64,000 nucleotides of DNA from assembly GCA_017449065.1 (NCBI GenBank), contig JAFSKF010000032.1, forward strand, positions 1 through 64,000, given 5' to 3'. Of the stretch, positions 33,201 to 50,161 are shown piece after piece; position 1 is the stretch's first letter; each line of letters opens with the position of its first letter. A model generated the notes under the pieces. The model did not search any database. It was given only the letters and a program-made list of their open reading frames with translations, and was not told where the DNA came from. Made by a program: the position numbers and the translations under genes. The stretch is from Bacteroidales bacterium (GTDB lineage Bacteria > Bacteroidota > Bacteroidia > Bacteroidales > UBA3663).

Positions 33201-33266
33201 CAAAATTATGGGAAAGCCTGCAAAAAGACTTTCCCATACGTTGCAGGGGAGTGGCGAAATGTCGCA
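33201..33266 (-). promoter_or_regulatory. Regulator site and promoter A, drives the xus operon
   Basis: Read on the minus strand: distal half-site TGCGAC (33261-33266), 15 bp, proximal half-site TGCAAC (33240-33245), 31 bp, then the -7 box TAATTTTG (33201-33208). The half-sites are 21 bp apart, two helical turns, as expected for an AraC-type regulator dimer. The 31-bp spacer carries an exact inverted repeat, TATGGGAAAG/CTTTCCCATA, also found almost unchanged at promoter B. No good -33 TTTG exists at the usual distance, consistent with an activator-dependent promoter. Confidence 0.85.
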
Positions 33267-33271
33267 ATTGC

Positions 33272-36200
33272 CTATTTTATTACGATTTTCCTGCCATTCT
33301 GAATATATACACCTTGCTTTTCAGGTATTCTTGTCTGCATTCCTTGCAAGTTGTACCACAAGTTATTTCCGGGTTCCACACTTACCACGCTTTCAATATC
33401 CGAAGGTGTTTCTCCGTCTTCGCTGAGGAAAACGCGCTTCAGGCGAATTGCTTTGCCACCGTTGGTCTGAAAAGAAACACGGGTTACGGCCTGTTTGTCA
33501 ATCTTTGTGACATTCGATAGCTTGAGTTTCGTTGTGGCACTGGTGATGGTTCGCGTATAGGATCCCGATTTGTCGTAGAGGCAGAGTGTGGTCGAAACGG
33601 CAGGCTTTTCTTCCATCTCTATCACAAGGTATGAGGTTGTCGCGATATTGAGGCCTACAGAGTATTCCCAACCGGCTTGTCCTTTGGAGGATGTGATAAA
33701 TTCTCCGGTTTGTGCATTGAACGTACCTTCTCCTACGATGCTCGGATTGAAGAGACCTTCTCTGATTGGAAACGATTCAACAGCCAGTGAGAATCCGAAC
33801 TGATGCTCCGTTCCTTCGTAATCTGTGTAGGTGGCAGTCACCTGGGCTTCGCCTTCCTTCAGACCCGTGACGATGCCGCGACTGATAGAAGCGATGCTTT
33901 CGTCATCAAGGTCATAGCTGCAGTTGGCTGCTATCGGTTGCTTCATGCCAGAACGCATCACGGCATAAACAGGTAAGGAGGTTGTTCCTCCATTCAGTAC
34001 TTCAACGCGGCTGTCTATATCGATATGATCGAGTTGCAAGTCTTCGGCAGAGAAGGTCTGTAGTCTTTCGGGAGAATAGAACTGCTCCTCAGAGAATGCC
34101 GTTTCCGTGGAGAACCAGTCGATGTCAACATAGCCACCAGTGTTTTCCGTCGAATAGTTGAAGAGGTAGAATCTCTGTCCCGCAAAGACAGTAATCAGGA
34201 AACGCATGTCGAACGAGTTGGAAATCGCGCGTGAGTAGGTTACGTTGTCTGTACTATAATAATAGGTTACTTTCGAAGTGCCGAAGTTGGCTCGTGCCTG
34301 TAAATAGACAACATCTGTTGTCAACTCTCCGCAATCTTTTTCGAACTCAGCATTACTGTCGTATGCTGACCGATAAACATACAGGTGACGCACACCATTC
34401 AGTTGTTTTACACCTACCCATGAATAAGGGTCTTGAAATACTGCCAGACCACATACATCGCCGTCTTGCATGTGCGATACATCAACCTTCATGGTTCCAT
34501 AGACCTGCGGTTTCTTGGAATTCAGAGTCCCTTCGTTATGAAGGGCGATTATGCGCTGAGTCAGGGAGTTCCTGGCTTCTTTCAAGTTGTTGGCTTTACC
34601 TGCCGTGTAAAGTCGCAGATTGCCTGGATTCTCAATCAGCGACCATGCCGAAGCATCCGGCTGATGGTTCCATTGCCATTGCAAGCCGAGATTGAGCGCT
34701 GTGAATGTTTCGTTGGTCGAAAGAGCAGCACGCGGCCAGGCTTGTCCGACGTTTGGCTTGGTGTATGCCACACCGTTTTTGCTCACATCAATGCCGTCAT
34801 TACCGATGGTCGGCCAGCCGTTGTTCCATGCAACGGGTTCCAGATAGGGTATGCGTCCGATAGCCCCGTCGTCTTTGAATAAAACGGTCCACCATTCTCC
34901 GGTCGGAGTATCCACTAACGCTCCTTGGTGGATATGTTGGCCTTTCATGACACGTTCTCCGACTTCCTCATACGTTCCCATAGGCTCTGTGCTTCGGAAG
35001 ATGGTCTGCGAACCTTCCGTGCCTCCATAGGTGGCATAAATATAATAGTAGTTGCCGATGTGGTAGATTTTACTGCCTTCCAGACCGCTGTCATCCCTGA
35101 CGATGACTTCTTTGTCAGCCACTCGATTGAACTGCCTGTCGAGCTTCACCACATGCAAGCGGTTGATGCCGCACGAAACATAGATATAGTCCCCTTCGAA
35201 CAGCATGCCGCAGTCGTAGTAGTTGTCGTTGAGCTTGCGATAGGTCCAAGGCCCTGCCGGGTCGGTGGCTGTCAGCACTGAACCGCCCACGTCAAGACTG
35301 CTTATCAGAATGTAATAAGTACCGTTGCTGTAACCCAATGCTGAAGCCCACATGCCTTCTGCATAGGCACCCTTTCCGTCAAGCAGGTTGTGCTTGTTAT
35401 CATCAGCCAGTTGTGACAGCGGATTGGCGCAGTATTCCCAGTTGACGAGATCGTGCGATTTTAGCAGTGTGGCTCCCGGCAGATGATGGAATGTGGTTGA
35501 TAGCATATAGAACGTGTCATCCACGCGGATAACGTCAGGATCCGGAAAGTCGGCGTTGATAATGGGATTGATGTAAGTGCCGTCTCCTTGGTCGCTATAG
35601 CGCACTCGTTCGAATGACGGATAGGCAAAGTCTGTCTGTGCGTATGCCTTGTACCAAGCCATGCAAGCCTCTCCGCAAGCTTCGGCATTACCTTGGCAGA
35701 AGGGTACGATCTCCCCCTTGTTGATGTAGGTATCGATATCAATATAGTCGCCTACACCGGTTAGGTTCATCGAGATGCCATATTTGTCAATCAGGGCTTG
35801 ATAGAGTGTACCCCATCCGCTTGTCGTAGCTGTGCCCCAAGTACCGTAATTGGCAGGAACCCATTGCCCGAATTCGTTATACTTTCCTTCCCCTTCTTTC
35901 TCCGGACTCCAGTCTATTTCGGTAATGATGACAGGAGCGCTTTCCACGACGGGAACCATATTGACGAAATTCTGGATATACTTCTCCGGATTACCGATGC
36001 ACTGGTCACTGCCATACCATTCTGGATAATTGTGAACGGCATAACCGATGTTGTAGCCGGCAATCGGATGCTCTTTATATCCATTGTAGATGCTTTGATA
36101 TCCTGCTCCCGGCACCCAGATGATTCCGGTAAAACCATTTTGGCGGATTAGGTCGGCGATGGGCTGGAAGAAGTCGTGAGGAGCCGAACCTGTATTATCC

Positions 36201-36820
36201 TGCTTTCCGTTGGCATCGAGGATGTTTACTGGTTCGTTAGCCAGTTCCAACTGGATGAACCCTGCATATTTCCGGATGCTGTCATCCTGCGAGATATAGT
36301 TCCAGACTGTTTTCAGATAGTCCTGATAGCCTCCGTTCACCTGAATTTCCTCTGGGCAAACTCCTGGTGGACGTACCACTACATAGAGACCGTGTCCCAA
36401 TGCTTTCTGGATAAGAGGCCAGTAGAGTTTCTCCCAGAACTGCTTGAAGCGGCTCTCCTTAAAGGCTGCATAATCGCTTTCGTCCTTGCCGTTGACGAAG
36501 CACCAGCAGGGGTCTAAGTGCAGGCGAAACACATTGCAATAAGCACCTTTGGTTGTGTCGGTCACGGCTGTATAGAGCTTGTCAAAATACTCGATACAGC
36601 GGTTGACGTATGCCGTCGAGGCGGATGTTCCCCAGCGTCCGTTGTTGAAGTAGGGTGAAGGCGTGTCCATGACGCCATGCAGCACCACGTGGTTGCCTTG
36701 CTCGTCCTGCAATTCGGTACCATGGGTGTGCAACGGTGACAAAATGCCGAACTGTGCCCGTGCCACGAATGGCACAAGCACAGTAAGGGCAAAAGTCAGA
36801 AGCAAAGACTTCTTGTTCAT
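33272..36820 (-). CDS. GH5-GH43 two-enzyme fusion, secreted
   Basis: This 1182-residue protein joins two catalytic domains. After a signal peptide (LTVLVPFVARAQ) comes a GH5 barrel (about residues 25-400), with acid/base Glu196 in ELANEP and nucleophile Glu301 in IITEIDW. A GH43 propeller starts near 415 (ADFPDPDVIRVDDTFYML, general base near Asp427; putative acid in GLEGSKIYHIG). A C-terminal concanavalin-like domain, an Ig-like Big domain near residues 935-1010 and a terminal sorting-type motif (GVYIQNGRKIVIK) follow. The pairing of an endo-acting GH5 with an exo-acting or debranching GH43 fits arabinoxylan breakdown. It is second in the transcript from promoter B, 4 bp after the preceding gene. 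Confidence 0.87.
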   Translation of the reverse strand: MNKKSLLLTFALTVLVPFVARAQFGILSPLHTHGTELQDEQGNHVVLHGVMDTPSPYFNNGRWGTSASTAYVNRCIEYFDKLYTAVTDTTKGAYCNVFRLHLDPCWCFVNGKDESDYAAFKESRFKQFWEKLYWPLIQKALGHGLYVVVRPPGVCPEEIQVNGGYQDYLKTVWNYISQDDSIRKYAGFIQLELANEPVNILDANGKQDNTGSAPHDFFQPIADLIRQNGFTGIIWVPGAGYQSIYNGYKEHPIAGYNIGYAVHNYPEWYGSDQCIGNPEKYIQNFVNMVPVVESAPVIITEIDWSPEKEGEGKYNEFGQWVPANYGTWGTATTSGWGTLYQALIDKYGISMNLTGVGDYIDIDTYINKGEIVPFCQGNAEACGEACMAWYKAYAQTDFAYPSFERVRYSDQGDGTYINPIINADFPDPDVIRVDDTFYMLSTTFHHLPGATLLKSHDLVNWEYCANPLSQLADDNKHNLLDGKGAYAEGMWASALGYSNGTYYILISSLDVGGSVLTATDPAGPWTYRKLNDNYYDCGMLFEGDYIYVSCGINRLHVVKLDRQFNRVADKEVIVRDDSGLEGSKIYHIGNYYYIYATYGGTEGSQTIFRSTEPMGTYEEVGERVMKGQHIHQGALVDTPTGEWWTVLFKDDGAIGRIPYLEPVAWNNGWPTIGNDGIDVSKNGVAYTKPNVGQAWPRAALSTNETFTALNLGLQWQWNHQPDASAWSLIENPGNLRLYTAGKANNLKEARNSLTQRIIALHNEGTLNSKKPQVYGTMKVDVSHMQDGDVCGLAVFQDPYSWVGVKQLNGVRHLYVYRSAYDSNAEFEKDCGELTTDVVYLQARANFGTSKVTYYYSTDNVTYSRAISNSFDMRFLITVFAGQRFYLFNYSTENTGGYVDIDWFSTETAFSEEQFYSPERLQTFSAEDLQLDHIDIDSRVEVLNGGTTSLPVYAVMRSGMKQPIAANCSYDLDDESIASISRGIVTGLKEGEAQVTATYTDYEGTEHQFGFSLAVESFPIREGLFNPSIVGEGTFNAQTGEFITSSKGQAGWEYSVGLNIATTSYLVIEMEEKPAVSTTLCLYDKSGSYTRTITSATTKLKLSNVTKIDKQAVTRVSFQTNGGKAIRLKRVFLSEDGETPSDIESVVSVEPGNNLWYNLQGMQTRIPEKQGVYIQNGRKIVIK

Positions 36821-36824
36821 AACA

Positions 36825-38561
36825 TTATTTTACGATGAATTTTCGTCCGTTCTTTACGTAGATTCCCCGGGTAGGGATGTTGACCTTCCGGCCAGAGAGA
36901 TCAAAGATGAATCCATTCTCTACAGGTTCAGCGGTTACGTTCGTAATACCGTCGGCTTCGAATGGCTGAGCACCTTTCACTGAGAATACCAGTCCGTTTT
37001 CCTGTTCTTCAGCTTTTGTCAGCTTCGAGCAGTCGATATAAGCGGTATTCGAGTTGACACGCTTGGCACGACCGGTTACGGCTTCAAATGTATCGCCATC
37101 ACCATTCAGAACCAGATAGTTCTTATCGGATTCCACATAGTAGGTGACGAATTCGTCAGCTACCAAAGCTCCATTGGCTTCCGGCTGAGCGACCTCGTTG
37201 GCACCGGCACGGAAGGCAGTCACGTTGCGGGTGGAGTTCGTACGTATGATGTAAGGCTTGCCGGCTTCCAGAATGCCGCTATAGGGCTTGGCATAGAGTT
37301 CTGCAGGTTCTGCAGGATTGTCGATACCGGCAATGTCGTAAACCTGAGCTCCGCAAAGAGCCGATGCAAAAGGCAGACAGAGGGTCATCACGTTGTTCTC
37401 CGAAGCATTCTCGATGATATAGTCGCCCGTATTGTCGGTACCGTCACCGATACCCGTCGAATAGGCAGGTGCTGTGTTCGTCAGCCAAGCGCCAGCGATA
37501 CCGTATTCCCAAGTGCTTACGCCTCCCCATAGACTCCATTTCAGCGAGGCAATCTTCGAGGCATCGAAGTTCTCAAGGTAGGCATCTTCGTCCATAGCCG
37601 TAGATGTGATGGTTGTCAGATCCTGAACGGCGCAGCGGGCACGATTCCACCAGCCATGACGCAGTGTGCCTGCATCGAATACATTGTCGTCGGCATCAGT
37701 CAGCAGATAGCGGATGTATGGTGTACTTTCACTGGCTGGCAACTGTGGTACCACTACCAGATATTTATAGTTACTCCAGTCGGCAGGCTGGTCTTCGAAG
37801 AACAGACCGGCTTCAGCGTTTTCGTTCATGTGCAGGGTTCCGGTGTTGTCAATGTATGAGGCGCTGCCGGGTTCCTCTTCGTTCAAGAACTCGTCGGTAA
37901 ACTGGAGCGTATTCTCGCTGAGCAGGTTCAGGTAGTCTTTTTCTCCATTCTCAAGGGTGCGTTCCAGATACATTGCGGAAATGGTTACGGTTACATCCGG
38001 ACCGGGAGCTGGATCCACGAAATCCGGATCATAATTTTCGTTCTCCGGATTGGTCTTATCGCCGTTAACATCCCAATAGTTCCAGAATTTGAACTGCTTG
38101 ATATTGGACAGATCCAGTTGTCCGTCACCGTTGTTGCGGTCAAGACCTTCACGGAAGTCAATTTCATATTCCACTTCCTCGTCCATTTCTACCACATTGT
38201 CAGGCATCGTATATTGTCCTTCTTCGCCCACGCCATTGAAGCTGGCATAGTCGCGAATATTAAATGTCAGATTGTTGCCGACAACGGATTTCAGACGAAT
38301 GACCAGTTTGTCGTACTTCGACATATCAACACCGGGTTCCCAGAACGGACCTCCAAAATCCCATCCTACAGCACAGAACATACCGTGAATGGTGAACGAA
38401 TTTTCAACAGCGTTGACTTCGTTCGGGTTTTCATCCCAGTCCCATACCTTCTGGTTGAACGTCGGGTCGCTGACGCGATAGAACTGACGAACCTTTTGTT
38501 GTGCGATGGCTGTGATGGCCAGACAGAACATTGCCACGATGAGTAAAATGTTTTTCTTCAT
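36825..38561 (-). CDS. Secreted multidomain protein, probably carbohydrate-binding
   Basis: The 578-residue product is not a named enzyme. It has a signal peptide (MKKNILLIVAMFCLAITAIAQ) and two beta-sandwich-like modules (about residues 25-205 and 225-365) with DMSKYDKLVIRLKS and WSNYKYLVVVPQL strands, the pattern of galactose-binding/CBM folds. A third module contains NNVMTLCLPFASALCGAQVYD, and a terminal motif GIYVKNGRKFIVK closes it. No catalytic signature was recognised. A protein with the same module order is encoded at 43163-44797. It is the first gene after promoter B, ahead of the GH5-GH43 enzyme. A role in binding xylan or arranging enzymes at the surface is inferred. Confidence 0.55.
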   Translation of the reverse strand: MKKNILLIVAMFCLAITAIAQQKVRQFYRVSDPTFNQKVWDWDENPNEVNAVENSFTIHGMFCAVGWDFGGPFWEPGVDMSKYDKLVIRLKSVVGNNLTFNIRDYASFNGVGEEGQYTMPDNVVEMDEEVEYEIDFREGLDRNNGDGQLDLSNIKQFKFWNYWDVNGDKTNPENENYDPDFVDPAPGPDVTVTISAMYLERTLENGEKDYLNLLSENTLQFTDEFLNEEEPGSASYIDNTGTLHMNENAEAGLFFEDQPADWSNYKYLVVVPQLPASESTPYIRYLLTDADDNVFDAGTLRHGWWNRARCAVQDLTTITSTAMDEDAYLENFDASKIASLKWSLWGGVSTWEYGIAGAWLTNTAPAYSTGIGDGTDNTGDYIIENASENNVMTLCLPFASALCGAQVYDIAGIDNPAEPAELYAKPYSGILEAGKPYIIRTNSTRNVTAFRAGANEVAQPEANGALVADEFVTYYVESDKNYLVLNGDGDTFEAVTGRAKRVNSNTAYIDCSKLTKAEEQENGLVFSVKGAQPFEADGITNVTAEPVENGFIFDLSGRKVNIPTRGIYVKNGRKFIVK

Positions 38562-38604: not shown

Positions 38605-38670
38605 CAAAGTTACGGGAAAGCCCCCAAAGAGACTTTCCCGCATGTTGCATCGGATGGGTCGATTGTTGCA
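38605..38670 (-). promoter_or_regulatory. Regulator site and promoter B
   Basis: Read on the minus strand: TGCAAC (38665-38670), 15 bp, TGCAAC (38644-38649), 31 bp, TAACTTTG (38605-38612). Geometry is identical to the other five sites. The spacer contains CGGGAAAG/CTTTCCCG, an inverted repeat matching the one in promoter A. The site begins 5 bp after the stop of the upstream GH127/146 gene, as site A does after the GH5-GH43 gene. Confidence 0.85.
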
Positions 38671-38675
38671 CCCCC

Positions 38676-41219
38676 TTATTTTACTATGATTTTTTTGTTT
38701 CTTGATATATATATGCCCCGTGGAAGACCATTATCAGTGGTGTTTACGCTTCTTCCGTCAAGCGTGAACAATTGTTCGTCTGCACGGGGCAAATTAAAAT
38801 TTACCGTTCTCAGATCGTTGACTTCATCAGCAGAAATGAGCAAACGTACGTAGTAGATGCCTCCAAAAATGTTTCCGCTCTTAGCCTTGAACTTTACGCG
38901 GACTTCGGTCTTGCCCTCCAAGAGGGATGCCGGGATTTCGTACTCTTTGTTGACAAACTCGTTCTTGCCGCCAGTCAGCGTCTCGGTGGCAATGGTCTGA
39001 TTGTCTATCTGGATATCGAATTTCCGGTTTCCGGCATCACCGCCCCAGTAACGAACCATCAGAGTTACTTTTTCGGATTTACCTTTGGTCTGCATTTTGT
39101 AACTGACGTAACCGGAGCCGTCGCGCCAGTATTCACCCTGATATTCGCCCTTGTTTGAGTTCTGCACCTGCATGTAGTGGTCGGCTTCGCTCTGTTGCGT
39201 GCCGGCATCCACATAGTCAAGAGTTCTGGATTCGAGCAATTGGGCAGCCGCCTCTTCTGCTTCCAGTTCTGCCTTGATGCTGTTCCACTTCTCGCCATCA
39301 ACGTTCAGCCAGTACATCATGTAGCGGGCTTCGTGAATATTGGCAAAAGGTTCCAGCACAAGGTCACTCCATTTTTCGTCATTGTAATAGCCGTTAATCT
39401 TAAAATGAAGTTTCGAGAGGTCAACCGGCTGTACGGCTGTCACCAGATCTTCACGGTTGCCTATCAAGAGCGGTGCCGTATAGATGTTTTTCTGTTGTCC
39501 GCTTGCCACGTGTCCCATACGGCTGTCATCAGCAAAGATGCCCGTGAGTCCGTCGGTGCCCGTCTTGGCTCCCAAAAGGATGGGACCGTATTTGAAGGCT
39601 ACATAGTCGGTGTAGTTCTGCAGCGGTTGCAGCGTCACCTGCATGGGCAGGCTCACTTCCACCACATCGCCTGCCTGCCAGATGCGGCTGACGGGCAGAT
39701 AACCCAGAGTCTCCGTAGCATTGACGGCAGTACCATTCACTTTCACCTCAAAGCCGGAGCACCAATTCGGATGGCGCACGTTCAGGGTGAATGTTCCGCC
39801 TTTCAGAATCGTGATTTTTGTGGCTGCCTCGTAGGGGAACGATGTTTCCTGAGTCAGTTTTACTCCCTTTTCGCTCCAGGTCAGCGTTGTCGGAACAAAC
39901 AGATTGACATAAAGATTCTCTCCATCGTGGGCATAGACGAACTCTCCGTACTTCCCATGATTCTCCATGCCGGTTCCCACACAGCACCACATGGCCTGAT
40001 TAACCTGTGAATATACACGGTAGTGTTGCGGACGGGCAGAGGTGAAATAGACATAGCCGCCTGTTTCAGGATGTTGCGACGAGAGGATGTGATTGTACAT
40101 GGCCTGCTCGTAGAAGTCGCCGTACATTGAGTTGTGGCTGTCGGCAAACAGGTCTTCCGTCAGTTTCATCATGTTGTTGGTGTTGCAGGTTTCCACACCC
40201 TCCACGCTGGTGATGAAGTTGCCGTATTGCTGGTCGTTCGGGAACCATTCGGCAATCGAGTTGCCGCCTACGGCAATCGTGCGTTTATTGACTACGTTTT
40301 TCCAGAAGTTCAGGGCTGCTTTCTTGTAGGTATTGGAACCGTCCTGCTGGTAGGTCCGTTCGAATCCCACCACTTTCGGAACCTGCGTGTTCGCATGAAC
40401 GTTATTGATGGTAGTGGTTGTGTTGGCAGCCATTCCTGTCAGCAGCCATTTGTGGGCATAGCGCTTCGAGGCGGTGAGGTATTTTTCTTCGCCCGTCATC
40501 TGATAGGCATCGGCAAACATCTCGTTGATGCCACCGTGTTCCTGGTTGAGCAGTCCCTGCAGCTGATCGTCGGTAAGTCCGGAGACAAGGTTCACACCCC
40601 AGTCGCAGAATTTCAGGAAAACCTCTTTGGCTTCTTCGTTCCCCGCATAGACCCAGGCATCACGCAGTCCGGCCATCGTCTTGTGAATGTTGTAGAAAGG
40701 TACCCACGACTTCCAGTATTCGTCCATGTTGCCCGCAGCCAGTGTGGTAAAGACTTTTTCGGAGTTATACACGGCACCACAGTAGCCTTTCATCATATCG
40801 ATACCCTTGGCATCCCAAGCGTCCTGGCATTCCTTCAATCGTGTGACGAACTGATCCATACGCTCTTTCAGTTGAGCCTTTACAGTGACATCCTGACACG
40901 AGGCATACGAGATGGCCAGGGCAGAGATGTAGTGACCGCCCACATGCCCCTGCAATCCATACGTTCCGCCCCAGTTTTCGAAGGCTTTGCCGCTTTCCGG
41001 CAGCCCTGCCTGGTTTTCGTAGGGTTGCATCAGTCGTCCGAGGTCATATTGCAGCAAAACCTGATCATTCAGATCCTGTGCATGCCGGAACGGTCCGTCG
41101 TTAATCACTACATCCTGCAGATCGAACAGTTGCGGATAGAGTTTGCTCTGTGCATTGGCGGAAGCTGCCATAGTCAATGCCAGTAAGGCGACAGTTATTC
41201 GTTTTTCTTGTCGTTTCAT
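38676..41219 (-). CDS. GH127/GH146 family beta-L-arabinofuranosidase (DUF1680), secreted
   Basis: This 847-residue protein has a signal peptide (ALLALTMAASANAQ) and an alpha/alpha-barrel typical of the DUF1680 families. The metal/catalytic motif of these cysteine-dependent glycosidases is visible as VETCNTNNMMKLT, carrying Glu and Cys, and MWCCVGTGMENH, carrying the Cys pair. GHVGGHYISALAISYAS is a further family segment. A beta-rich C-terminal part (MVRYWGGDAGNRKFDIQIDN) and a terminal motif (GIYISRNKKIIVK) follow. Such enzymes remove beta-linked L-arabinofuranose from plant glycans. It begins 24 bp after the stop of a GH31 remnant and probably belongs to the transcript from promoter C. Confidence 0.87.
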   Translation of the reverse strand: MKRQEKRITVALLALTMAASANAQSKLYPQLFDLQDVVINDGPFRHAQDLNDQVLLQYDLGRLMQPYENQAGLPESGKAFENWGGTYGLQGHVGGHYISALAISYASCQDVTVKAQLKERMDQFVTRLKECQDAWDAKGIDMMKGYCGAVYNSEKVFTTLAAGNMDEYWKSWVPFYNIHKTMAGLRDAWVYAGNEEAKEVFLKFCDWGVNLVSGLTDDQLQGLLNQEHGGINEMFADAYQMTGEEKYLTASKRYAHKWLLTGMAANTTTTINNVHANTQVPKVVGFERTYQQDGSNTYKKAALNFWKNVVNKRTIAVGGNSIAEWFPNDQQYGNFITSVEGVETCNTNNMMKLTEDLFADSHNSMYGDFYEQAMYNHILSSQHPETGGYVYFTSARPQHYRVYSQVNQAMWCCVGTGMENHGKYGEFVYAHDGENLYVNLFVPTTLTWSEKGVKLTQETSFPYEAATKITILKGGTFTLNVRHPNWCSGFEVKVNGTAVNATETLGYLPVSRIWQAGDVVEVSLPMQVTLQPLQNYTDYVAFKYGPILLGAKTGTDGLTGIFADDSRMGHVASGQQKNIYTAPLLIGNREDLVTAVQPVDLSKLHFKINGYYNDEKWSDLVLEPFANIHEARYMMYWLNVDGEKWNSIKAELEAEEAAAQLLESRTLDYVDAGTQQSEADHYMQVQNSNKGEYQGEYWRDGSGYVSYKMQTKGKSEKVTLMVRYWGGDAGNRKFDIQIDNQTIATETLTGGKNEFVNKEYEIPASLLEGKTEVRVKFKAKSGNIFGGIYYVRLLISADEVNDLRTVNFNLPRADEQLFTLDGRSVNTTDNGLPRGIYISRNKKIIVK

Positions 41220-41243
41220 AAATCTCTGTGATTATAGTAAGTA

Positions 41244-41460
41244 TTATAGTTTTACGTTAATAGTCTTTCCCGAATAACTGACAGTTTTCGAGGTGCCGTC
41301 GGGAAGGATAACCGAGAACTGACGAGTCTTTGCGGAAGCATCGAATCCGCCTTTCTGTCGCCCGATGGTCAGGGTATGGCGACGGTCGTTCCATTGCATG
41401 GGTATTTCAGCATACATCCCCTGTTCGTAGGCATAGGTCTCGCCGTCATCTTCGGGATCT
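41244..41460 (-). pseudogene. 3' remnant of a GH31 glycosidase gene
   Basis: The minus-strand frame ending in TAA at 41244-41246 has no start codon but encodes about 71 residues resembling the C-terminal DUF5110 domain of GH31 enzymes. Examples are DPEDDGETYAYEQGMYAEIP, LTIGRQKGGF and the ending GKTINVKL. A GH31 enzyme is normally 700-900 residues, so more than 90 percent is missing. The remnant abuts 41-bp tandem repeats at 41471-41620. GH31 alpha-xylosidases or alpha-glucosidases are common members of xylan loci, so this was probably a functional part of the operon. Confidence 0.72.
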
Positions 41461-41470
41461 CTCGCTGATT

Positions 41471-41620
41471 GCGTCAGCGGGAACTCCGGAGGAAAAGAAA
41501 TGGAATCTGCTGTGTCAGCGGGAACTCTGGAGGAAAAGAAATGGAATCTGCTGCGTCAGCGGGAACTCCGGAGGAAAAGAAATGGAATCCGCTGCGTCAG
41601 CGGGAACTCCAGGACGCTGA
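41471..41620 (-). repeat. 41-bp tandem repeat at the GH31 deletion
   Basis: Three full copies and one partial copy of a 41-bp unit start at 41471, 41512, 41553 and 41594, each with GCGTCAGCGGGAACTC followed by GGAGGAAAAGAAATGGAA. Copies differ at only one or two positions. The period is not a multiple of three, so no reading frame is preserved. It fills the space between the GH43 stop and the GH31 remnant and probably marks the rearrangement that removed the gene. Confidence 0.9.
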
Positions 41621-41623
41621 ACT

Positions 41624-42613
41624 CTATTTATTTTGTGGCAATGTAATTTTCGGAATCCGTCCGTCCTTCTGGCGCTTGAACTTCAGGATGGCGGTGCTGC
41701 GGCGGAAGCCGTTGCCACCGCTGGGGATGCCGTCGTGATAGAACAGGTAGTTCTTGCCCCGAAACCGAATGGTGCCGCCATGGATGGTGAACGAGCCGGG
41801 AGCCTCGTCGGTGATGCGACCTTCATAATGCCAAGGGCCGTGTATGCTCTTGGCGGTGGAGTAGGCCCAGTGCTCGGGCACGCCACCTGCGGCATACTCC
41901 AGGAAGTAGGTGTCTCCGATTTTATAGATCCATGGAGCTTCCTCGAAGTTGGTTTTCAGCATTTTCTTGTTATACTGATAATCCTGCTTCATTACACGCG
42001 GACCGAACTGTGCCTCGTCATCGAGCATGGAACGCATGTCGCAGATGCCTTGGTTGGCGAAAGAGGTGTCGATGCTGATCATGTCTTCGTTCAGTTTGGC
42101 ATACCAGCAACCGTTGTTGCCCCAGAAAAGGTAGGCCTGTCCGTCATCGTCAATAAATACGGTAGGGTCGATGTAGCCCCAGTTGCCGGGAATCAGCGGC
42201 TTCCCGATCGGGTCGGTCCAGGGTCCTTCGGGTCGGTCTGCCACAGCCACTCCGATACCGTGCAGGTGGTTGGTGTTGTCTTCAGCTGCCACATACCAGT
42301 ACCATTTGCCATTACGCTCGATGGCTTGCGACGCCCAGGCATTGTCGCCCTGTCGTGCCCATTGGAAGGTGGCAGTAGTCATCACCACGCCATGATTTTT
42401 CCAGTGTTTCATGTCGCGTGTAGAGAAAAGCTGCCAGTCGGGCATGCGGAAATAAGTGGCGGTATCCATGTCATGGCCGGTAAACACATAGAGTGTCTTG
42501 CCCGAGACCACAGGAGCCGGATCGGGCGTATAGGAATCGGTTTCGATGCGCATTTGCGCTTGTCCTGCTATAGTCAGCATAACAGAGACGGTGAGGAGAA
42601 AGGTTCTTTTCAT
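41624..42613 (-). CDS. GH43 glycosidase, secreted, single domain
   Basis: From the start at 42613 (MKRTFLLTVSVMLTIAGQAQ, a clear signal peptide) the protein has 329 residues, the size of a bare five-bladed GH43 propeller. The catalytic residues are visible: general base Asp in SYTPDPAPVV, modulating Asp in GYIDPTVFIDDDG and acid Glu in NFEEAPWIY. No binding module or C-terminal sorting motif is present, unlike its neighbours. An upstream ATG at 42667 overlaps the promoter region and is rejected. It is the first gene after promoter C. Arabinofuranosidase or xylosidase action on xylan side chains is likely; the precise activity is not readable. Confidence 0.88.
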   Translation of the reverse strand: MKRTFLLTVSVMLTIAGQAQMRIETDSYTPDPAPVVSGKTLYVFTGHDMDTATYFRMPDWQLFSTRDMKHWKNHGVVMTTATFQWARQGDNAWASQAIERNGKWYWYVAAEDNTNHLHGIGVAVADRPEGPWTDPIGKPLIPGNWGYIDPTVFIDDDGQAYLFWGNNGCWYAKLNEDMISIDTSFANQGICDMRSMLDDEAQFGPRVMKQDYQYNKKMLKTNFEEAPWIYKIGDTYFLEYAAGGVPEHWAYSTAKSIHGPWHYEGRITDEAPGSFTIHGGTIRFRGKNYLFYHDGIPSGGNGFRRSTAILKFKRQKDGRIPKITLPQNK

Positions 42614-42638
42614 ATAGTTCGAATTCATTTTTGCTGTG

Positions 42639-42704
42639 CAAAGGTAGGCATAACGGAGCGAAGCCATTGCGCTGTATGTCGCAATGGCTTCGCTGAATGT
42701 TGCA
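42639..42704 (-). promoter_or_regulatory. Regulator site and promoter C with a perfect inverted repeat
   Basis: Read on the minus strand: TGCAAC (42699-42704), 15 bp, TGCGAC (42678-42683), 31 bp, TACCTTTG (42639-42646). In addition, a perfect 15-bp inverted repeat (42657-42671 and 42680-42694, arm AGCGAAGCCATTGCG) with an 8-bp centre covers the proximal half-site and the space between the half-sites. This could form a cruciform or be a second protein site. It drives GH43 and presumably GH127/146. Confidence 0.83.
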
Positions 42705-42753: not shown

Positions 42754-42918
42754 TTAATCATCCTGCCAGAGGCGGGAACGGCTGGCGCCACCCACCTCGC
42801 CTTCAGTAGCATCCCCTCCGAATCCCATAGTAGTTTCCGTTGTTCGTCCTGATCCGGCAATCATTTGCGTCTGGACCTCGATGCTAACAGAAAGAGGTTT
42901 TTGATAGTTCTTTTTCAT
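42754..42918 (-). CDS. Small protein of 54 residues, paralogue 2
   Basis: This short ORF starts MKKNYQKPLSVSIEVQTQMI and continues through AGSG, a Thr-rich stretch, MGFGGDATEGEVGGASR and a short end WQDD. It is clearly related to the ORF at 42963-43133, with the same start MKKNYQKP, the same IA-x-SG segment and the same MGFG-x-A-x-GEVG-x-A-R pattern. No signal peptide or membrane segment is seen, and no RiPP maturation enzyme is encoded nearby. The two ORFs lie between the gene at 43163 and promoter C, probably at the 3' end of the transcript from promoter D. Function is unknown. Confidence 0.7.
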   Translation of the reverse strand: MKKNYQKPLSVSIEVQTQMIAGSGRTTETTMGFGGDATEGEVGGASRSRLWQDD

Positions 42919-42962
42919 AATTTGTGCCTCCTATTATTTTCAAATAGATTACATAAGAGAAA

Positions 42963-43133
42963 TTATTCTTCTTCGTACCATTTGCCCCAGCCTCGGGGAG
43001 CATTTCCAACCTCTCCGTTCTGGGCGTTGTCGCCAAAGCCCATGGTGTTTCCGGTTACTTGACCGGAAGCAGCAATCACTTCCGTATTAATATCTATACT
43101 AAGCATAGATGGCTTCTGATAATTCTTTTTCAT
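42963..43133 (-). CDS. Small protein of 56 residues, paralogue 1
   Basis: The ORF starts MKKNYQKPSMLSIDINTEVI, continues IAASG and MGFGDNAQNGEVGNAPRGW and ends in KWYEEE. It begins 29 bp after the stop of the secreted protein gene at 43163, and its paralogue begins 44 bp further on. Conservation is concentrated in the first eight residues and in the MGFG/GEVG region, with the middle and the tail variable, a pattern reminiscent of leader/core peptides but not proof of it. No precedent is recognised with certainty; short MKK-x-Y-x-KP ORFs do occur in Bacteroidales. Confidence 0.7.
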   Translation of the reverse strand: MKKNYQKPSMLSIDINTEVIAASGQVTGNTMGFGDNAQNGEVGNAPRGWGKWYEEE

Positions 43134-43162: not shown

Positions 43163-44797
43163 TTACTTCAGTATGATCTTCTTGCCGTTCTTTACAAAGA
43201 TACCCTTTGTTGGCTGCTTCACCTGAACACCGCTGAGCGAGTAGATAGGCGTATTGGCTTCGGTAGCATTGACAGTTTCGATGCTGGTTACTTCTTCACT
43301 GAAGAGACCGATACGCATTGCACCGGCAGGGGCAGTAGTTACTTCCAGTTCAGGAACCTTTGTGAAATAGGCGCGATAGAGACCCACCTGATTCTGATTG
43401 GCTACCGTTACTTTCTTCCACTGGTTGCCTACAAGGATATAGGAATCGGCAGGCACGTAGCGGGTGGCGGCATTGAAGTAGCCAATCAGGGCGTTGCCTG
43501 TAGCAGGTTCTGTCAGATTGTCGGCTGCGCCAGTCTTGGTGAAGGTGATGTCCTCAGCATCGGTGCTCTGGAATACATATCCCTTACCAGCTTCCATTTC
43601 GCTGACAGCCTCCAAATAGACATAGGTTGCATCCCAGCCCACTACATCATAGACGTTGGCATTGCTGGGCGTAGAGGCAGCGAAAGGCAGGCAGATGGTG
43701 CCGTAGGTTGAGGCATTTTCATTATTGCGGACAAGATAAACATTTGGAGTTCCTGGCTTAGCCAGATACATTTCTTCAATGGTGGCACTAGCGTTCTGCG
43801 ACCAACTCCAGAAACGGATGGAGTTAATCATAGATAAATCAATTGCCTCTGCACCATCTTGGTTTGTCGTCAACCCATTGGTCAGGTCAATGGTTGCCTG
43901 ATAATTATTAGCAGTGATCAATGCAACCGTATATTGACCTGCTGCATTATTTTCAGCGTCTTTCTTTCCGAATATGCGTAACTCGATGCCAGGATAGTAG
44001 GTGTTCTCGTAATTCACAGTTTCTGTGTCTCTATACTTTGTCTCGCCTCCTTCTTCATACGCTTCCTGAACATACGGATGAGCCGCTACATCTTTCAGTT
44101 TTACGACCAGGCTGCTATAAGAGGAAATGTCTAATTTGTCAGTCCACCAGTATTCCCAGCCTACAGCACCACCAAAGTCCTTTATCAAAAAACTATTGCT
44201 TGCCTCTGTCTTCTGATTTGTACCCCAAATGGTTGTGCTGAATGCAGCATCGCTAACATTGAAATTGCTTTTTATCGTTGTAGCTTGCTCAATGACTTGA
44301 TCAATGTCGGCCGGTGCCAGGTAGAATCTTTTAATTTTGATGACTTGACTCTTTCCCCATCCCGTTCTAATCATCAATTGTCCGGCATTTGTCAGGTCTA
44401 TCTCCTCGCCAATGGCATGATCTGTATTTGCATCATTAGTGATTTTCAGACCGGTCAAAGGAATAGAAAGCTTTGTTTGTCCTGTTTCCAAAATAGTCAT
44501 ATGCTTGGGACCCCAGAAACCGTAAGGGAGCACGCAAACTTCCACATTTGCCGTAGTAGCCTCTTCCAATTCTAAAACCAGTTTAGAATAGCCGGAGATA
44601 TCGGTCACTGCCCATGTTACAGCGGCATTGGCATCGTCAGTGTTCTCGTAGGTAAGGGTGTTACCGCTAAAAGTTAGTTTCTCACCGTTCCACTCCTTCG
44701 TAGCATCGGCCAGATTAAAATAGATGCGTTCAGTTGCTGCCTGCACCCCGGCGACTGCCATGAGCACGGCTGCGATTAAAAATGTAATTCTTTTCAT
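43163..44797 (-). CDS. Secreted multidomain protein, probably carbohydrate-binding (paralogue of 36825-38561)
   Basis: This 544-residue protein has a signal peptide (MKRITFLIAAVLMAVAGVQA) and at least two beta-sandwich modules (about 22-155 and 170-345) with DISGYSKLVLELEEA and DISSYSSLVVKLKDV strands. A module with ASTYGTICLPFAASTPSNANVYD and a terminal motif GIFVKNGKKIILK follow. The module order and the CLPFA segment match the product of 36825-38561. No catalytic residues were recognised. It is the first gene after promoter D. Binding of plant cell-wall polysaccharide at the cell surface is inferred from context only. Confidence 0.55.
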   Translation of the reverse strand: MKRITFLIAAVLMAVAGVQAATERIYFNLADATKEWNGEKLTFSGNTLTYENTDDANAAVTWAVTDISGYSKLVLELEEATTANVEVCVLPYGFWGPKHMTILETGQTKLSIPLTGLKITNDANTDHAIGEEIDLTNAGQLMIRTGWGKSQVIKIKRFYLAPADIDQVIEQATTIKSNFNVSDAAFSTTIWGTNQKTEASNSFLIKDFGGAVGWEYWWTDKLDISSYSSLVVKLKDVAAHPYVQEAYEEGGETKYRDTETVNYENTYYPGIELRIFGKKDAENNAAGQYTVALITANNYQATIDLTNGLTTNQDGAEAIDLSMINSIRFWSWSQNASATIEEMYLAKPGTPNVYLVRNNENASTYGTICLPFAASTPSNANVYDVVGWDATYVYLEAVSEMEAGKGYVFQSTDAEDITFTKTGAADNLTEPATGNALIGYFNAATRYVPADSYILVGNQWKKVTVANQNQVGLYRAYFTKVPELEVTTAPAGAMRIGLFSEEVTSIETVNATEANTPIYSLSGVQVKQPTKGIFVKNGKKIILK

Positions 44798-44864: not shown

Positions 44865-44930
44865 CAAAGGTAGGGCTTATTCTGAAGACTGTTTGGGCGG
44901 GATGTTGCATCCAGTGGATGAAACGTTGCA
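44865..44930 (-). promoter_or_regulatory. Regulator site and promoter D
   Basis: Read on the minus strand: TGCAAC (44925-44930), 15 bp, TGCAAC (44904-44909), 31 bp, TACCTTTG (44865-44872). Both half-sites are exact. It precedes the secreted protein gene at 44797 with a predicted leader of about 60 nt. Confidence 0.86.
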
Positions 44931-44949
44931 CGGGGCGGAAAAGGTCAAA

Positions 44950-45948
44950 TCAGGCCGGACGTTGCTGTGCCGTAGGTTGCAAATTCCGACGCTTGCGCCG
45001 GTCTGAAAGTTCCGTCCGGATCTGTTCCCCGAAGGTTTTTGTGATGGGATAGGACCAAAGGGTGGCAATGCCTACGGCAAAAAGCAGCCCCGGAACAATG
45101 CTGCCCGTAAAGCGGATACCCTGGAGGGTGTTCCACGAATGGAGATCGGGGGCATCGGGTGTGTAACCGTAGAAGAGCAGCAAGGCTCCGGCCAGGAAAA
45201 TGCCTAAACCCAGACCAGTTTTCAGCGAGAACATCACTCCTGAATAGCACGACCCTGTAGCACGACGGAAATGCTGATGTTCCACATAATCGGCAACATC
45301 TCCAGTCATCGCCCAAAGGATAGGAATCATGGGGGCAAAGGCCAGCGACTTCAAGACGCAGAGCAGAAATATCATCGAGATGTCGTCTGGCTGCGGAATG
45401 TAGAACAGGAAAGAGAACAAAGCCGTCAGCATAAGGCAGATTATCAGAATCTCTTTCTTGCCAAAAAGCCTGAAATAGCGGAGGAAAAGCCAGGTGCCAA
45501 TCAGTTGCGACAGGGCTCCAACCAGAATGAAGAGGAAGAGCCCCACAAAGAAAGCATCTTTGCGAGCCACAGGAATGAACCATAACCAGGCAACCAGCGA
45601 CTGGCTGTCCACGTAGTCGTAGAAATAGAACCCCAACATGGCGCATCTCAGGCTCTGTGCGATAGCGACCATTGTCATCGTCAGGGCAACAGCTCGCCAG
45701 GACGGACTTTTCATCGAGGTCTGCATCTCTAACCGTGTGTCAGCCGGACGGCTTTTGCTAAAGTAGGGGGTAACATTGACGTGGAAGAACGTTATCACTC
45801 CGACATAGCCCAATGCCAAACAGATAGCCGCCGGCAGCCCAAGAAGATCTGCAACGGGCTTCAAGAGCAACGTTGCCAACACCTGAAGCAACAGGTCTGC
45901 AGCCACATCGCCCATCGGATAACCTTTTATATATTTATCATTATTCAT
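44950..45948 (-). CDS. GPH-family sugar transporter with an apparent internal deletion
   Basis: The 332-residue product resembles glycoside-pentoside-hexuronide:cation symporters of the MFS fold, which normally have about 450-500 residues and 12 membrane helices. The first helix (YIKGYPMGDVAADLLLQVL) is followed at once by a later helix (ICLALGYVGVITFF) and then the C-terminal half (GTWLFLRYFRLFGKKEILI, VLKSLAFAPMIPILWAMTGDVADYVEH). About 120-150 residues, helices 2-5 in family terms, seem to be missing without loss of frame. It may be inactive. Family members carry xylosides or xylo-oligosaccharides into the cytoplasm. It has its own promoter E, divergent from the regulator gene. Confidence 0.75.
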   Translation of the reverse strand: MNNDKYIKGYPMGDVAADLLLQVLATLLLKPVADLLGLPAAICLALGYVGVITFFHVNVTPYFSKSRPADTRLEMQTSMKSPSWRAVALTMTMVAIAQSLRCAMLGFYFYDYVDSQSLVAWLWFIPVARKDAFFVGLFLFILVGALSQLIGTWLFLRYFRLFGKKEILIICLMLTALFSFLFYIPQPDDISMIFLLCVLKSLAFAPMIPILWAMTGDVADYVEHQHFRRATGSCYSGVMFSLKTGLGLGIFLAGALLLFYGYTPDAPDLHSWNTLQGIRFTGSIVPGLLFAVGIATLWSYPITKTFGEQIRTELSDRRKRRNLQPTAQQRPA

Positions 45949-45974
45949 ATCTGTAATGATTCATAAATCCGGTG

Positions 45975-46040
45975 CAAAGGTATCCCGATTTCTCAAGACG
46001 CATTGGGCGAAATGTTGCAACGGTTGGCAAAAATGTGGCA
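45975..46040 (-). promoter_or_regulatory. Regulator site and promoter E
   Basis: Read on the minus strand: TGCCAC (46035-46040, one mismatch), 15 bp, TGCAAC (46014-46019), 31 bp, TACCTTTG (45975-45982). It drives the transporter gene and lies in the 174-bp region shared with the divergent regulator gene, whose own promoter begins 26 bp beyond this site. Confidence 0.82.
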
Positions 46041-46065
46041 CAGACCTCATTTTTTGCTTTTTTAG

Positions 46066-46097
46066 TTTGGCACTTGACAATAAAAAACGTATTTTTG
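46066..46097 (+). promoter_or_regulatory. Promoter of the hybrid two-component regulator (TTTG-N20-TATTTTTG)
   Basis: TTTG at 46066-46069 and TATTTTTG at 46090-46097 are 20 nt apart, the canonical Bacteroidetes promoter. Unlike the six regulated promoters it has a proper -33 box, which suggests constitutive low-level expression of the sensor. Confidence 0.75.
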
Positions 46098-46122
46098 CAT
46101 CCGTAAAAAGAAAAAATCTTAC

Positions 46123-49100
46123 ATGATGAAACAACTTCGGTTCGAACTTACCTTATGGCTTCTGGTCTTTGCTTGCCTGTCTCTACAGGCGGCAGAAGGA
46201 CACCTCTTCACCAGCGAGCAGCTAACCAGTACCAATGTCAACCACATCACACAAGACCGTCAAGGCTATGTCTGGATAGCCACAAGCTATGGCCTGAACC
46301 GCTTTGACGGCTACCGGTTTACCTCATATTTCTATCAGCCGGACGATTCGCGTTCCTTGAGTCATAACAACGTGCAGACCTTGTTTGTCGATAGCGAAGG
46401 ACAGTTATGGGTAGGCACCGTCAAAGGACTGAACCGCTATAACGAAGCCACCGAAGACTTTGATCACTTCGATATGCGCCCGGACACCGACGACGAACCG
46501 CGCATCACTAATATTCTGGAAAGTCCAAAAGGCAGCATTATTGTGGGAACATCCGGATTCGGTCTTTACGAGGTAGGGAAGCATCAGAACGATATCAGGC
46601 AGATCAACCAGTATTCATCCGACGACGAGAACGACTACTATTGGGGAATCCTGTTCGATCGTCAGGGCAGGTTCTGGAAGTCGGACAACTATGGCTTCAT
46701 CAGTTGCTTCTCTGCCGGAGAACAGCCGCATTTGCTGCTGAGATGCCAGCCTGAAACAGGACTTACATTCAAATTCCAGCAGGCTGATAATGGCGATGTG
46801 CTGGCTTTTTCGAAACAGGGCGGAGTGGTGTTCGACGGTGCAACCCTTTCTTCTCGTGAACTGCATACCAATCTGGCAACACTCTCCTGTGCCGCTATTT
46901 CCGATGACGGGAACCTGCTTTTAGGAACGACCGGTTATGGCTTGTGGAGATTCGGTATTTCCGGTCAGCCGCGTGAACTGGTAAACATTACCAGTCGGAA
47001 CGTCGATTTTTCAACGGCCAACATCAGTACTGTTTTCGAGGATCATCAGCACAATCTTTGGGTGGGGTGCAGCCAGCGAGGCTTGCTGTTCTGTCCTAAC
47101 GAGCAACGTGCTTTCCAGGGCTGGAGCCTGTCGGATAACGGTATCGTATCTGCCCGTGTTATCGAATCGCTGGCACAGGCTTCTGATGGTGGCTTGTGGG
47201 CAGCATTGGGCGATGGAGATCTCTATCATTTCGACGAGACGGGTCATATCTCCCGGACGGTTGAATGTCCGACTCGTCTGCATTTCATATATCGTGACAA
47301 AAACTTTCACTATTGGGTGGGAGCGGGTTGTACGCTATATGACTTTGACGAGCCGTCGGGACGCTTGCAGCGTAGGCAGACCTATGGGGGAGACTTCCTC
47401 AATACCATGATTGATGACGGGAAAGGAAACCTCTATCTTTCCACCTTCTCTGCTGGTATGACTGTCATCGACACCCGGTCAGGTGCTGAAAGCCACTACG
47501 ATATGTATCAGCGCGAAGACTCGCGCGGGTACCTTTGTAATAACTGGATATTTAATTTCCTGTTCGATTCCCGAGGATTGCTTTGGATTGCGACCTCTTC
47601 GGGCGTGAGTTGCTACGATCCTGTGGAAGATTCGTTCAAGACCTTTGGCTGGCATAACATTCTTGAGGGTTATGCCTGTCTGACGTTGGCTGAAGACGGT
47701 AATAGCAATATTCTGATCGGTACCGACAGAGGACTGTTCTGCTTCGACCGGCACAAGAACGAAGTCGGGGCATTTCCCGATGGGGGAGGATCGCTTGCCA
47801 CTAAGTCGGTCAACGCTATTTGCATTGAAAAGAACGGCGATGTCTGGTGTGCTACGTCAATGGGTATCTGGCACTATGCTGCAGAGGATGGACAGATGAA
47901 CGATTATCAGAGCAGTAACGGTCTGCGCGAACGGGAGTATTCCGTGGGAATCCGCCAGCAACTGGCAGACGGTCGCATTGTGTTTTCGACGAGTGAAGGA
48001 CTGGTGGTCTTTCATCCCGCCAACGTGCTGAATGTTCACCGCTCTCCCGGAGATATTACGCTGACTGCCATGCTGGTGGGCGGACAGCCGGTAACAACAG
48101 TCAGCCAAAGTGACGGACGACAGATAACCACCGAACCGCTTGACCGGTCCGGACATTTCACTTTGTCGTACCTTGACAATACTTTCACACTCGAATTTTC
48201 AACCTTCGATTTCGCCAATGCACGTAACGTGGCTTTGGAATATAAACTGAACGACGACCGTTGGACTCTGACTCCTGCCGGAGATAATACTGTTACCTTC
48301 AATCATCTGCGTCCGGGAACCTATCGCCTTTATGTGCGTGCGGTCGATAACGGTCAGTACTCACCCAGCCATGCTTACATTATTACCATTCGCGCACCAT
48401 GGTATCGCAGCAACATGGCCTATCTGGTTTATCTGTTGGGCGTGCTGATGCTTTTGGGCTATATGGCATGGCGATATTATCGCAACCGTCAGCAGCAACT
48501 GGCAGAAGAGAAAATGCAGTTCCTGATCAATGCGACCCACGACATCCGCACGCCGCTGACGCTCATTCTTTCGCCGTTGCACAAACTGATGTCACGACAG
48601 GACAACGACGTGGAAACAAAGGAAAAACTGGGAATCATTGACCACAACGCTCGCCGGATTCTGAACTTGGTGAACCAGATTCTCGACATCCGGAAGATTG
48701 ACAAGCAGCAGATGCAACTGCAATGCAGCGAGACGCAGATGGTGCCTTTCATCAATAATATATGTAAAGGTTTTAAGGCGCATGCCCTGGAACGCGGCAT
48801 CAGTTTCCGCTTCGAACACGCAGAAGACCGTCCGGCATGGATAGACCCCGTGCAGTTCGACAAGGTGGTGCAGAACCTGCTTTCCAATGCTTTCAAGTTC
48901 ACGGCAGACGGCGGCGAAATCCTTTTGGAACTGAGTTTCACGGATGAGGAGTTTACGATTTCTGTTACCGATACGGGTACCGGTCTTTCCGAAACCGACC
49001 TGCATCGTCTCTTCACCCGTTTTTATCAGTCGGCAGCCAATCAGGCAGCAGGACGAGAGGGGACAGGCATCGGACTGAACCTTTGCAAGATGATTGTAGA

Positions 49101-50037
49101 AATGCATGGCGGCGAAATTTCCGCCCGGAACCGTGAGGACGGCATTCGGGGCAGTCAGTTCATCGTTTCTGTGCCTCTCAGAAACGAAAAGATTAAGGCG
49201 AATGCTGAGGCACAGGCAGAGGAAATTGAAGAAAAAACACCCGAATCTGCTGTCAGCGTCTCCAGTTCTGGGGCACGCATCCTTCTGGTGGATGACGATG
49301 CAGAAATTACCGACTATATAGCGCAGGAACTGTCGCCCCACTATCGGTTCTCGACGGCTTCCAATGGCAAAGAGGCATTGCAGCAGTTGCTTTCCGGTGA
49401 TAAGAAATTCGACCTTGTGGTCAGCGATATCATGATGCCTGTCATGGATGGTTTCTCGTTGCTGCGTGCCATCAAGTCGAACATCAACATTGCCCACCTG
49501 CCTGTGATTCTCCTGACCTCGGAGGCGGCAGTCGGTAACCGCTTGGAGGGACTGGAACGAGGTGCAGATGCCTTTATGGCGAAACCTTTCATTGTGGATG
49601 AACTGCACGTACAGATTGACAACCTCCTGAAGAAAGCCCAGCGGCTGAAGGCCCAATACGGAACGAATTTAGAGGAGCAGAAGGAAAAGGTGGAGCAGCT
49701 TGACGTGGCAGATAACGACAAGGTGCTGATGGACCGTATCATGCAGTCGGTGAATAAGAACTTAGACGATTGCTATTTCAGCGTGGAGCAACTGGCACAG
49801 GAGGTCGGGTTGAGCCGTTCGCAGTTGCACCGGCGCATGAAGGAGCTGACGGGCCTTTCAGCGAGCGATTTTGTGCGCAACATCCGTATGGAGCAGGCGG
49901 CCCGGCTGTTGCGTGAGCGCCATGTCAATGTCTCGCAGGTTGCCTACTCGGTCGGTTTCTCTTCGTTGGGCACTTTCTCGAAGGTGTTCAAGCAGCATTT
50001 CGGACAGCCGCCTTCGGAGTATGCCGCACAGAATTGA
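46123..50037 (+). CDS. Hybrid two-component system regulator (HTCS), xylan-locus activator
   Basis: The 1304-residue protein combines sensor and transcription factor. A signal/anchor segment is followed by beta-propeller repeats (DRQGYVWIATSYGLNRFDG, SEGQLWVGTVKGLNRYN) and a Y_Y_Y domain (about 690-760) in the periplasm. A membrane helix (MAYLVYLLGVLMLLGYMAW) precedes the kinase with His806 in NATHDIRTPLTL and ATP-binding boxes NLLSNAFKF and GTGIGLNLCK. A receiver domain has Asp1102 in VVSDIMMPVMDG, and the C-terminus is an AraC-type DNA-binding domain (SRSQLHRRMKELTG, VAYSVGFSSLGTFSKVFKQHFG). It should sense a xylo-oligosaccharide and bind the paired TGCAAC sites. By position and type it resembles XynR of Prevotella bryantii. 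A second ATG immediately follows the first. Confidence 0.93.
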   Translation: MMKQLRFELTLWLLVFACLSLQAAEGHLFTSEQLTSTNVNHITQDRQGYVWIATSYGLNRFDGYRFTSYFYQPDDSRSLSHNNVQTLFVDSEGQLWVGTVKGLNRYNEATEDFDHFDMRPDTDDEPRITNILESPKGSIIVGTSGFGLYEVGKHQNDIRQINQYSSDDENDYYWGILFDRQGRFWKSDNYGFISCFSAGEQPHLLLRCQPETGLTFKFQQADNGDVLAFSKQGGVVFDGATLSSRELHTNLATLSCAAISDDGNLLLGTTGYGLWRFGISGQPRELVNITSRNVDFSTANISTVFEDHQHNLWVGCSQRGLLFCPNEQRAFQGWSLSDNGIVSARVIESLAQASDGGLWAALGDGDLYHFDETGHISRTVECPTRLHFIYRDKNFHYWVGAGCTLYDFDEPSGRLQRRQTYGGDFLNTMIDDGKGNLYLSTFSAGMTVIDTRSGAESHYDMYQREDSRGYLCNNWIFNFLFDSRGLLWIATSSGVSCYDPVEDSFKTFGWHNILEGYACLTLAEDGNSNILIGTDRGLFCFDRHKNEVGAFPDGGGSLATKSVNAICIEKNGDVWCATSMGIWHYAAEDGQMNDYQSSNGLREREYSVGIRQQLADGRIVFSTSEGLVVFHPANVLNVHRSPGDITLTAMLVGGQPVTTVSQSDGRQITTEPLDRSGHFTLSYLDNTFTLEFSTFDFANARNVALEYKLNDDRWTLTPAGDNTVTFNHLRPGTYRLYVRAVDNGQYSPSHAYIITIRAPWYRSNMAYLVYLLGVLMLLGYMAWRYYRNRQQQLAEEKMQFLINATHDIRTPLTLILSPLHKLMSRQDNDVETKEKLGIIDHNARRILNLVNQILDIRKIDKQQMQLQCSETQMVPFINNICKGFKAHALERGISFRFEHAEDRPAWIDPVQFDKVVQNLLSNAFKFTADGGEILLELSFTDEEFTISVTDTGTGLSETDLHRLFTRFYQSAANQAAGREGTGIGLNLCKMIVEMHGGEISARNREDGIRGSQFIVSVPLRNEKIKANAEAQAEEIEEKTPESAVSVSSSGARILLVDDDAEITDYIAQELSPHYRFSTASNGKEALQQLLSGDKKFDLVVSDIMMPVMDGFSLLRAIKSNINIAHLPVILLTSEAAVGNRLEGLERGADAFMAKPFIVDELHVQIDNLLKKAQRLKAQYGTNLEEQKEKVEQLDVADNDKVLMDRIMQSVNKNLDDCYFSVEQLAQEVGLSRSQLHRRMKELTGLSASDFVRNIRMEQAARLLRERHVNVSQVAYSVGFSSLGTFSKVFKQHFGQPPSEYAAQN

Positions 50038-50059
50038 CACCTCTGCATGATATTTTTTT

Positions 50060-50090
50060 AACGCTTTCTCTCACGGGAAAGCGTTTTTTG
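50060..50090 (+). terminator. Intrinsic terminator of the regulator gene
   Basis: AACGCTTTC (50060-50068) pairs with GAAAGCGTT (50077-50085), followed by a T-tract to 50089. It separates the regulator transcript from site F, which starts six bases later. Confidence 0.88.
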
Positions 50091-50095
50091 TGTTC

Positions 50096-50161
50096 TGCAA
50101 CAAATCAACTATTCCCTGCAACATTCCGTGTAACAGGTTTGCGAGAAATCCGCTACCTTTG
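50096..50161 (+). promoter_or_regulatory. Regulator site and promoter F, plus strand, no protein gene follows
   Basis: TGCAAC (50096-50101), 15 bp, TGCAAC (50117-50122), 31 bp, TACCTTTG (50154-50161). Both half-sites are exact and the geometry equals that of the five minus-strand sites. The predicted transcription start is near 50168. The next plus-strand protein gene is about 5 kb away, and the adjacent GH57 gene is convergent. Confidence 0.85.

Follow-up and report, generated by a model that had tools for sequence, protein, structure and literature searches.

The xylan locus and its regulator gene

The DNA analysed here, a stretch of 64,000 nucleotides from a Bacteroidales bacterium (contig JAFSKF010000032.1; hereafter the window), holds a locus whose gene set we take to be of the Bacteroidales xylan (xus) type. 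Behind five putative promoters, P1 to P5, stand minus-strand genes for polysaccharide uptake and breakdown, and a regulator gene adjoins them on the plus strand:

19143..33196, minus strand: putative P1 operon of co-directional genes, in order from P1 susC1-susD1-susC2-susD2-xusE-like-GH10-GH43
33272..38561, minus strand: putative P2 operon, a 578-aa protein without assigned function and a 1182-aa GH43
38676..42667, minus strand: predicted P3 transcript, with GH43 (41624-42667), a GH31 remnant (41265-41471) and GH127 (38676-41219)
43163..44797, minus strand: P4 gene, a 544-aa protein
44950..45948, minus strand: P5 gene, a shortened GPH/MFS_2 symporter without profile positions 1-179
46123..50037, plus strand: HTCS regulator gene, 1304 aa, with an AraC-type domain at residues 1224-1302 that is presumed to bind the six sites listed below

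The P3 genes would be co-transcribed across a 405-bp gap. Within that interval, 41265-41610 holds what is left of a GH31-type enzyme, its C-terminal DUF5110 part, with 3.4 copies of a 41-bp tandem repeat ahead of it; remnant and repeats point to a deletion in the locus or to a faulty assembly. The 544-aa product of the P4 gene had no Pfam or PDB match. Apparently within the P4 transcript, two adjoining small ORFs (42754-43133, minus strand) encode peptides of 56 and 54 aa that both start with MKKNYQKP and have a common TMGFG core and an acidic tail; neither had a family match at the cut-off. The P5 symporter is only 332 aa long, its profile match beginning at position 180, yet neither the P5 leader nor the start looks damaged.

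An earlier note on this DNA had read the adjacent gene as a hybrid regulator with an AraC-type DNA-binding domain, and the full HTCS domain set is indeed there: Reg_prop, Y_Y_Y, HisKA, HATPase, receiver and AraC HTH_18 domains lie in one chain. Residues 1224-1302 match PDB 12aw_A, a solved chain named hybrid two-component system protein, at E 4e-19, and the DNA-binding domain also matches MarA in sequence.

Six sites with invariant spacing

The same note had placed six sites, each with two TGCAAC-like cores ahead of a -7 box, in the window. Coordinates and strands proved correct to the base:

33201..33266, minus strand: P1 operator-promoter, distal half 33251-33266 (TGCGACATTTCGCCAC), proximal half 33230-33245, -7 box 33201-33208
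38605..38670, minus strand: P2 operator-promoter, distal half 38655-38670, proximal half 38634-38649, -7 box 38605-38612
42639..42704, minus strand: P3 operator-promoter, distal half 42689-42704, proximal half 42668-42683 (TGCGAC core), -7 box 42639-42646
44865..44930, minus strand: P4 operator-promoter, distal half 44915-44930, proximal half 44894-44909, -7 box 44865-44872
45975..46040, minus strand: P5 operator-promoter, distal half 46025-46040 (TGCCAC core), proximal half 46004-46019, -7 box 45975-45982
50096..50161, plus strand: P6 operator-promoter, distal half 50096-50111, proximal half 50117-50132, -7 box 50154-50161

Each site is 66 bp long, and five of the six lie on the minus strand. 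The 15 bp from core to core and the 31 bp from proximal core to -7 box are constant at all six, as had been claimed, and nine of the twelve cores read TGCAAC without change; two others read TGCGAC (the distal half of the site at 33201 and the proximal half of the one at 42639) and one TGCCAC (the distal half at 45975). The full pattern is thus TGCRAC-N15-TGCRAC-N31-TAnnTTTG, with one half TGCCAC. Five of the sites stand upstream of PUL operons within their own locus, and P6 is without a gene.

We scanned the window with a grid of 30 x 35 spacing combinations, allowing up to one mismatch, and used 60 first-order Markov shuffles as control. The cell for spacings of 15 and 31 bp held six sites and every other cell at most one; in the shuffles this pattern had a mean of 0 sites. 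Across the 3.15-Mb genome, the exact spacings gave seven matches at up to one mismatch, six of them in the xylan locus, and the reversed pattern gave none at up to two mismatches. Spacing grid, shuffles and genome counts together rule out a chance origin of the pattern.

Anatomy of the half-site and the promoters

The sequence between the cores, which had been described as unconserved, is partly conserved. Alignment of the twelve halves defines a half-site of about 16 bp, TGCAACATtYnGncnA, rather than a 6-bp core, with informative columns at 7, 8, 10, 12 and 16 beyond it. A16 is present in 11 of 12 halves, and T8, G12 and A16 in all six proximal halves. In P1 and P2 the second box of the proximal half is degenerate (GGGAAA) and lies inside an inverted repeat. 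An AraC-type domain has two HTH units that read successive major grooves, as in MarA, and a half-site of about 16 bp fits this arrangement.

All six sites carry a TAnnTTTG -7 box, as for a promoter of the Bacteroidota primary sigma factor. The usual partner of this box is a TTTG at -33 (PMC7366714). At about 20 bp ahead of the -7 box the six sites show no conserved TTTG, and the operator stands there instead; a T-rich element lies 12 bp upstream of the box. If the -7 box is taken to be centred at -7, the operator pair runs from about -69 to -33, around a centre near -51; it stops about 20 bp short of the box and covers the -33 region. Replacement of the -33 TTTG by the operator suggests that the six promoters are of an activator-dependent type.

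Inverted repeats overlap three of the operators. P1 has a perfect one of 10 bp over its proximal half, P2 a similar perfect one of 8 bp over the operator, and P3 a perfect one of 15 bp (42657-42671/42680-42694) over both halves. P1 and P2 begin about 6 bp past the stop of the upstream gene, so their inverted repeats may double as terminators. The P3 repeat (42657-42694) has a single copy genome-wide and is thus not a dispersed element.

The same pattern at other regulators

The pattern had also been proposed to define, by itself, the regulon of the locus. This does not hold: the identical pattern stands at the loci of other regulators, 21-bp tandems are general for HTCSs, and P6 adds no member. 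In a sister species (G005) the pattern occurs with no mismatch before a gene confirmed as GH32 by Pfam, and a like protein start follows a mismatch-free copy in five further genomes (G003, G004, G006, G007 and G011). The G005 locus has a different HTCS, of fructan type, whose sensor is a periplasmic-binding-protein domain (Peripla_BP_4). The seventh match in the present genome, on contig C30 and with one mismatch, lies just past a Reg_prop/AraC regulator and ahead of a rhamnogalacturonan lyase gene. These identical sites at fructan loci and on C30 exclude a locus-specific code. The C30 regulator (558-2423) carries Reg_prop and an AraC HTH, with the operator geometry immediately after it; kinase and receiver matches were absent from this protein, a possible one-component cousin of the HTCSs. 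Elsewhere in the same genome, TGTTAC-N15-TGTAAC-N31-TACCTTTG stands at a second xylanase operon (GH10 and an esterase; contig C45, 5283-5348).

Relatives of the HTCS that are 40-45% identical have equal geometry with other cores, TGAAAC or CGAAAC. In G004, TGAAAC-N15-TGAAAC-N31-TATCTTTG lies directly past the HTCS gene and ahead of susC, and in three other species a CGAAAC half stands exactly 31 bp ahead of TATCTTTG, also past an HTCS gene; these related loci keep the geometry and the place past the HTCS gene but not the core. The second box reads approximately GCCCA at the sites of the xylan locus versus a T-rich sequence at the C30 and fructan sites. Different cores at the same distance, together with the shared TGCAAC pattern, suggest that specificity probably lies in the third base of the core and in the second box; core plus spacing is insufficient to tell which HTCS binds. 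We discarded a recognition-helix rule for TGCAAC versus TGAAAC, as the alignment of DNA-binding domains has several simultaneous differences and the fructan HTCS reads TGCAAC too, with a different helix.

A proposed common ruler at HTCS promoters of Bacteroidales

The generality of the geometry was assessed on intergenic TAnnTTTG boxes of 80 HTCS loci, of which 75 contributed a total of 411 boxes. We compared 16-bp windows regardless of their sequence at distances (d) of 10-69 and periods (p) of 12-39, or 1,680 cells. The highest counts fell at p=21, with 27 of the 411 boxes at d=32 (z 10.3) and 23 at d=31 (z 8.6), where the mean was 2.7; adjacent d values partly represent a slide along one half-site. 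Eight scrambled boxes gave counts of 1-8 at d=31-32 and p=21, with no peak. By locus, 22 of 75 had such a site (null mean 3.1, maximum 11). Bacteroidales loci gave a clear signal (18 of 49; null maximum 8), and the remaining loci one that was not significant (4 of 26; null maximum 4).

These counts lead us to propose, at somewhat better than even odds, that HTCS promoters of Bacteroidales follow one fixed ruler irrespective of half-site sequence, with halves 21 bp apart and 31 bp from the end of the proximal core to TAnnTTTG. The 21-bp period is already published: HTCS motifs of Bacteroides were described in 2013 as tandem direct repeats averaging 21 bp (Ravcheev et al., PMC3878776). The distance to the -7 box is not stated in the main text of that paper, nor did we find it in the open-licence literature, and the -7-anchored ruler is the useful addition, meriting a test on mapped promoters. 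Few DNA sites are known for HTCSs, which belong to the commonest polysaccharide switches in Bacteroidales. With a ruler exact to the base and tied to the -7 box, their targets could be located without expression data. If true, such a single geometry of activation would allow the regulons and half-sites of HTCSs to be deduced from bare sequence, and it would argue for activation rather than repression, a matter on which the literature differs.

Probable assignment to the adjacent HTCS

Comparison with known systems places the six sites among HTCS operators. Those of Bacteroides likewise have repeats of about 21 bp upstream of PUL genes beside an HTCS, and that of HTCS_Man has the same 16+5+16 layout; they differ in half-site sequence and organism, and that study names no xylan HTCS for its 16 regulons (PMC3878776). 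Where susC is closest among xylan loci (L058, L059 and L124), the HTCSs are only about 30% identical, and two of these loci have TGTAAC-like sites. The layout is the one usual in this regulator family rather than a xylan-specific code, and the six sites are very probably where the HTCS docks. A second parallel is the I1-I2 pair at E. coli araBAD, direct repeats for an AraC-type HTH that are centred at -52.5 and partly overlap the -35 (PMC7408454). Unlike AraC, an HTCS is membrane-anchored and switched by phosphorylation, and the xylan locus differs from araBAD in its sigma factor and -7 box, which are of Bacteroidota type. XynR of Prevotella bryantii is a third: an HTCS-type regulator with positive control of a xylan locus, going by the title of its paper in the reference list of PMC11107044.

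We regard the earlier reading of the sites as two direct repeats for an AraC-type domain as well founded, the 21-bp tandems being of HTCS type and in activation position. Our main reading is that they are operators of the adjacent HTCS (46123-50037), placed for activation, with five of the promoters serving the locus; judged from sequence, we put its probability at about 0.85. A xylan-derived oligosaccharide in the periplasm would start a phosphorelay to the HTCS receiver, and the AraC-type C-terminus would then bind as a tandem pair, its two 16-bp half-sites lying on the same DNA face at a distance of 21 bp. Within each half-site, the upstream TGCAAC box and the downstream box, roughly nGncnA, would probably each take one HTH unit of a monomer. 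With the -7 box taken as centred at -7, the pair would have its centre near -51 and extend its proximal half to about -33, so the HTCS could substitute for a poor -33 element and contact RNA polymerase as AraC does at araBAD, giving activation and not repression. P1 to P5 would in this way serve two susCD pairs, GH10, the GH43s, GH127 and the transporter, with P6 a leftover at the edge of the locus.

Because core and spacing are common to other regulators, it is proximity and clustering that tie the sites to the adjacent HTCS. They might instead be bound by another regulator of the AraC or HTCS type (for example the one on C30, or a 36%-identical HTCS on C14), with control in trans or by several proteins: the seventh genome match at up to one mismatch follows a different Reg_prop/AraC gene, and a fructan locus with its own HTCS has identical patterns in sister species. 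Against this, six of the seven genome matches cluster around the adjacent HTCS gene and the second box differs from that of the C30 and fructan sites, and we consider such control improbable. Still less probable is that the HTCS silences the promoters as a bound repressor and is released on sensing oligosaccharide. A repressor model has been drawn for a complex-arabinoxylan HTCS (PMC7815789), but an operator in the -33 region that ends about 20 bp upstream of the -7 box occupies the activator position of araBAD, and the title cited in PMC11107044 terms XynR a positive regulator.

P6 at the edge of the locus

P6 has no core mismatch and lies 58 bp past the HTCS stop. No coding gene lies downstream; the promoter faces a convergent glycogen cluster of GH57, GT4 and debranching-enzyme genes, and is followed after 77 bp by a further feature:

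50239..50273, unstranded: hairpin with 17-nt arms, 94% complementary

A transcript from P6 would stop here at about 110-120 nt. The intact cores and the strong hairpin would suit an RNA of some 115 nt induced by xylan, or one that runs antisense into the glycogen operon, and sugar-responsive and PUL-linked small RNAs are known in Bacteroides (PMC7366714). We nevertheless hold either RNA to be unlikely, if slightly less so than control by another regulator. A genus-wide DNA search for a conserved small RNA from P6, covering 14 sister species, returned only short matches, most of them at the -7 box and leader start, so the transcribed stretch has no conserved counterpart there. The leader motif GTTAGTAAAG, common to P6 and a few other leaders, is too short to be informative. 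In several sister species a hairpin lies past the GH57 stop, as is often the case in the genus, which makes this one probably the terminator of GH57 itself. In sister species, moreover, a matching operator-promoter at the end of a related HTCS gene drives susC. Since relatives have susC at this place, the simplest account is that P6 is probably an orphan promoter at the locus edge, left after a susC operon was lost or recombined away.
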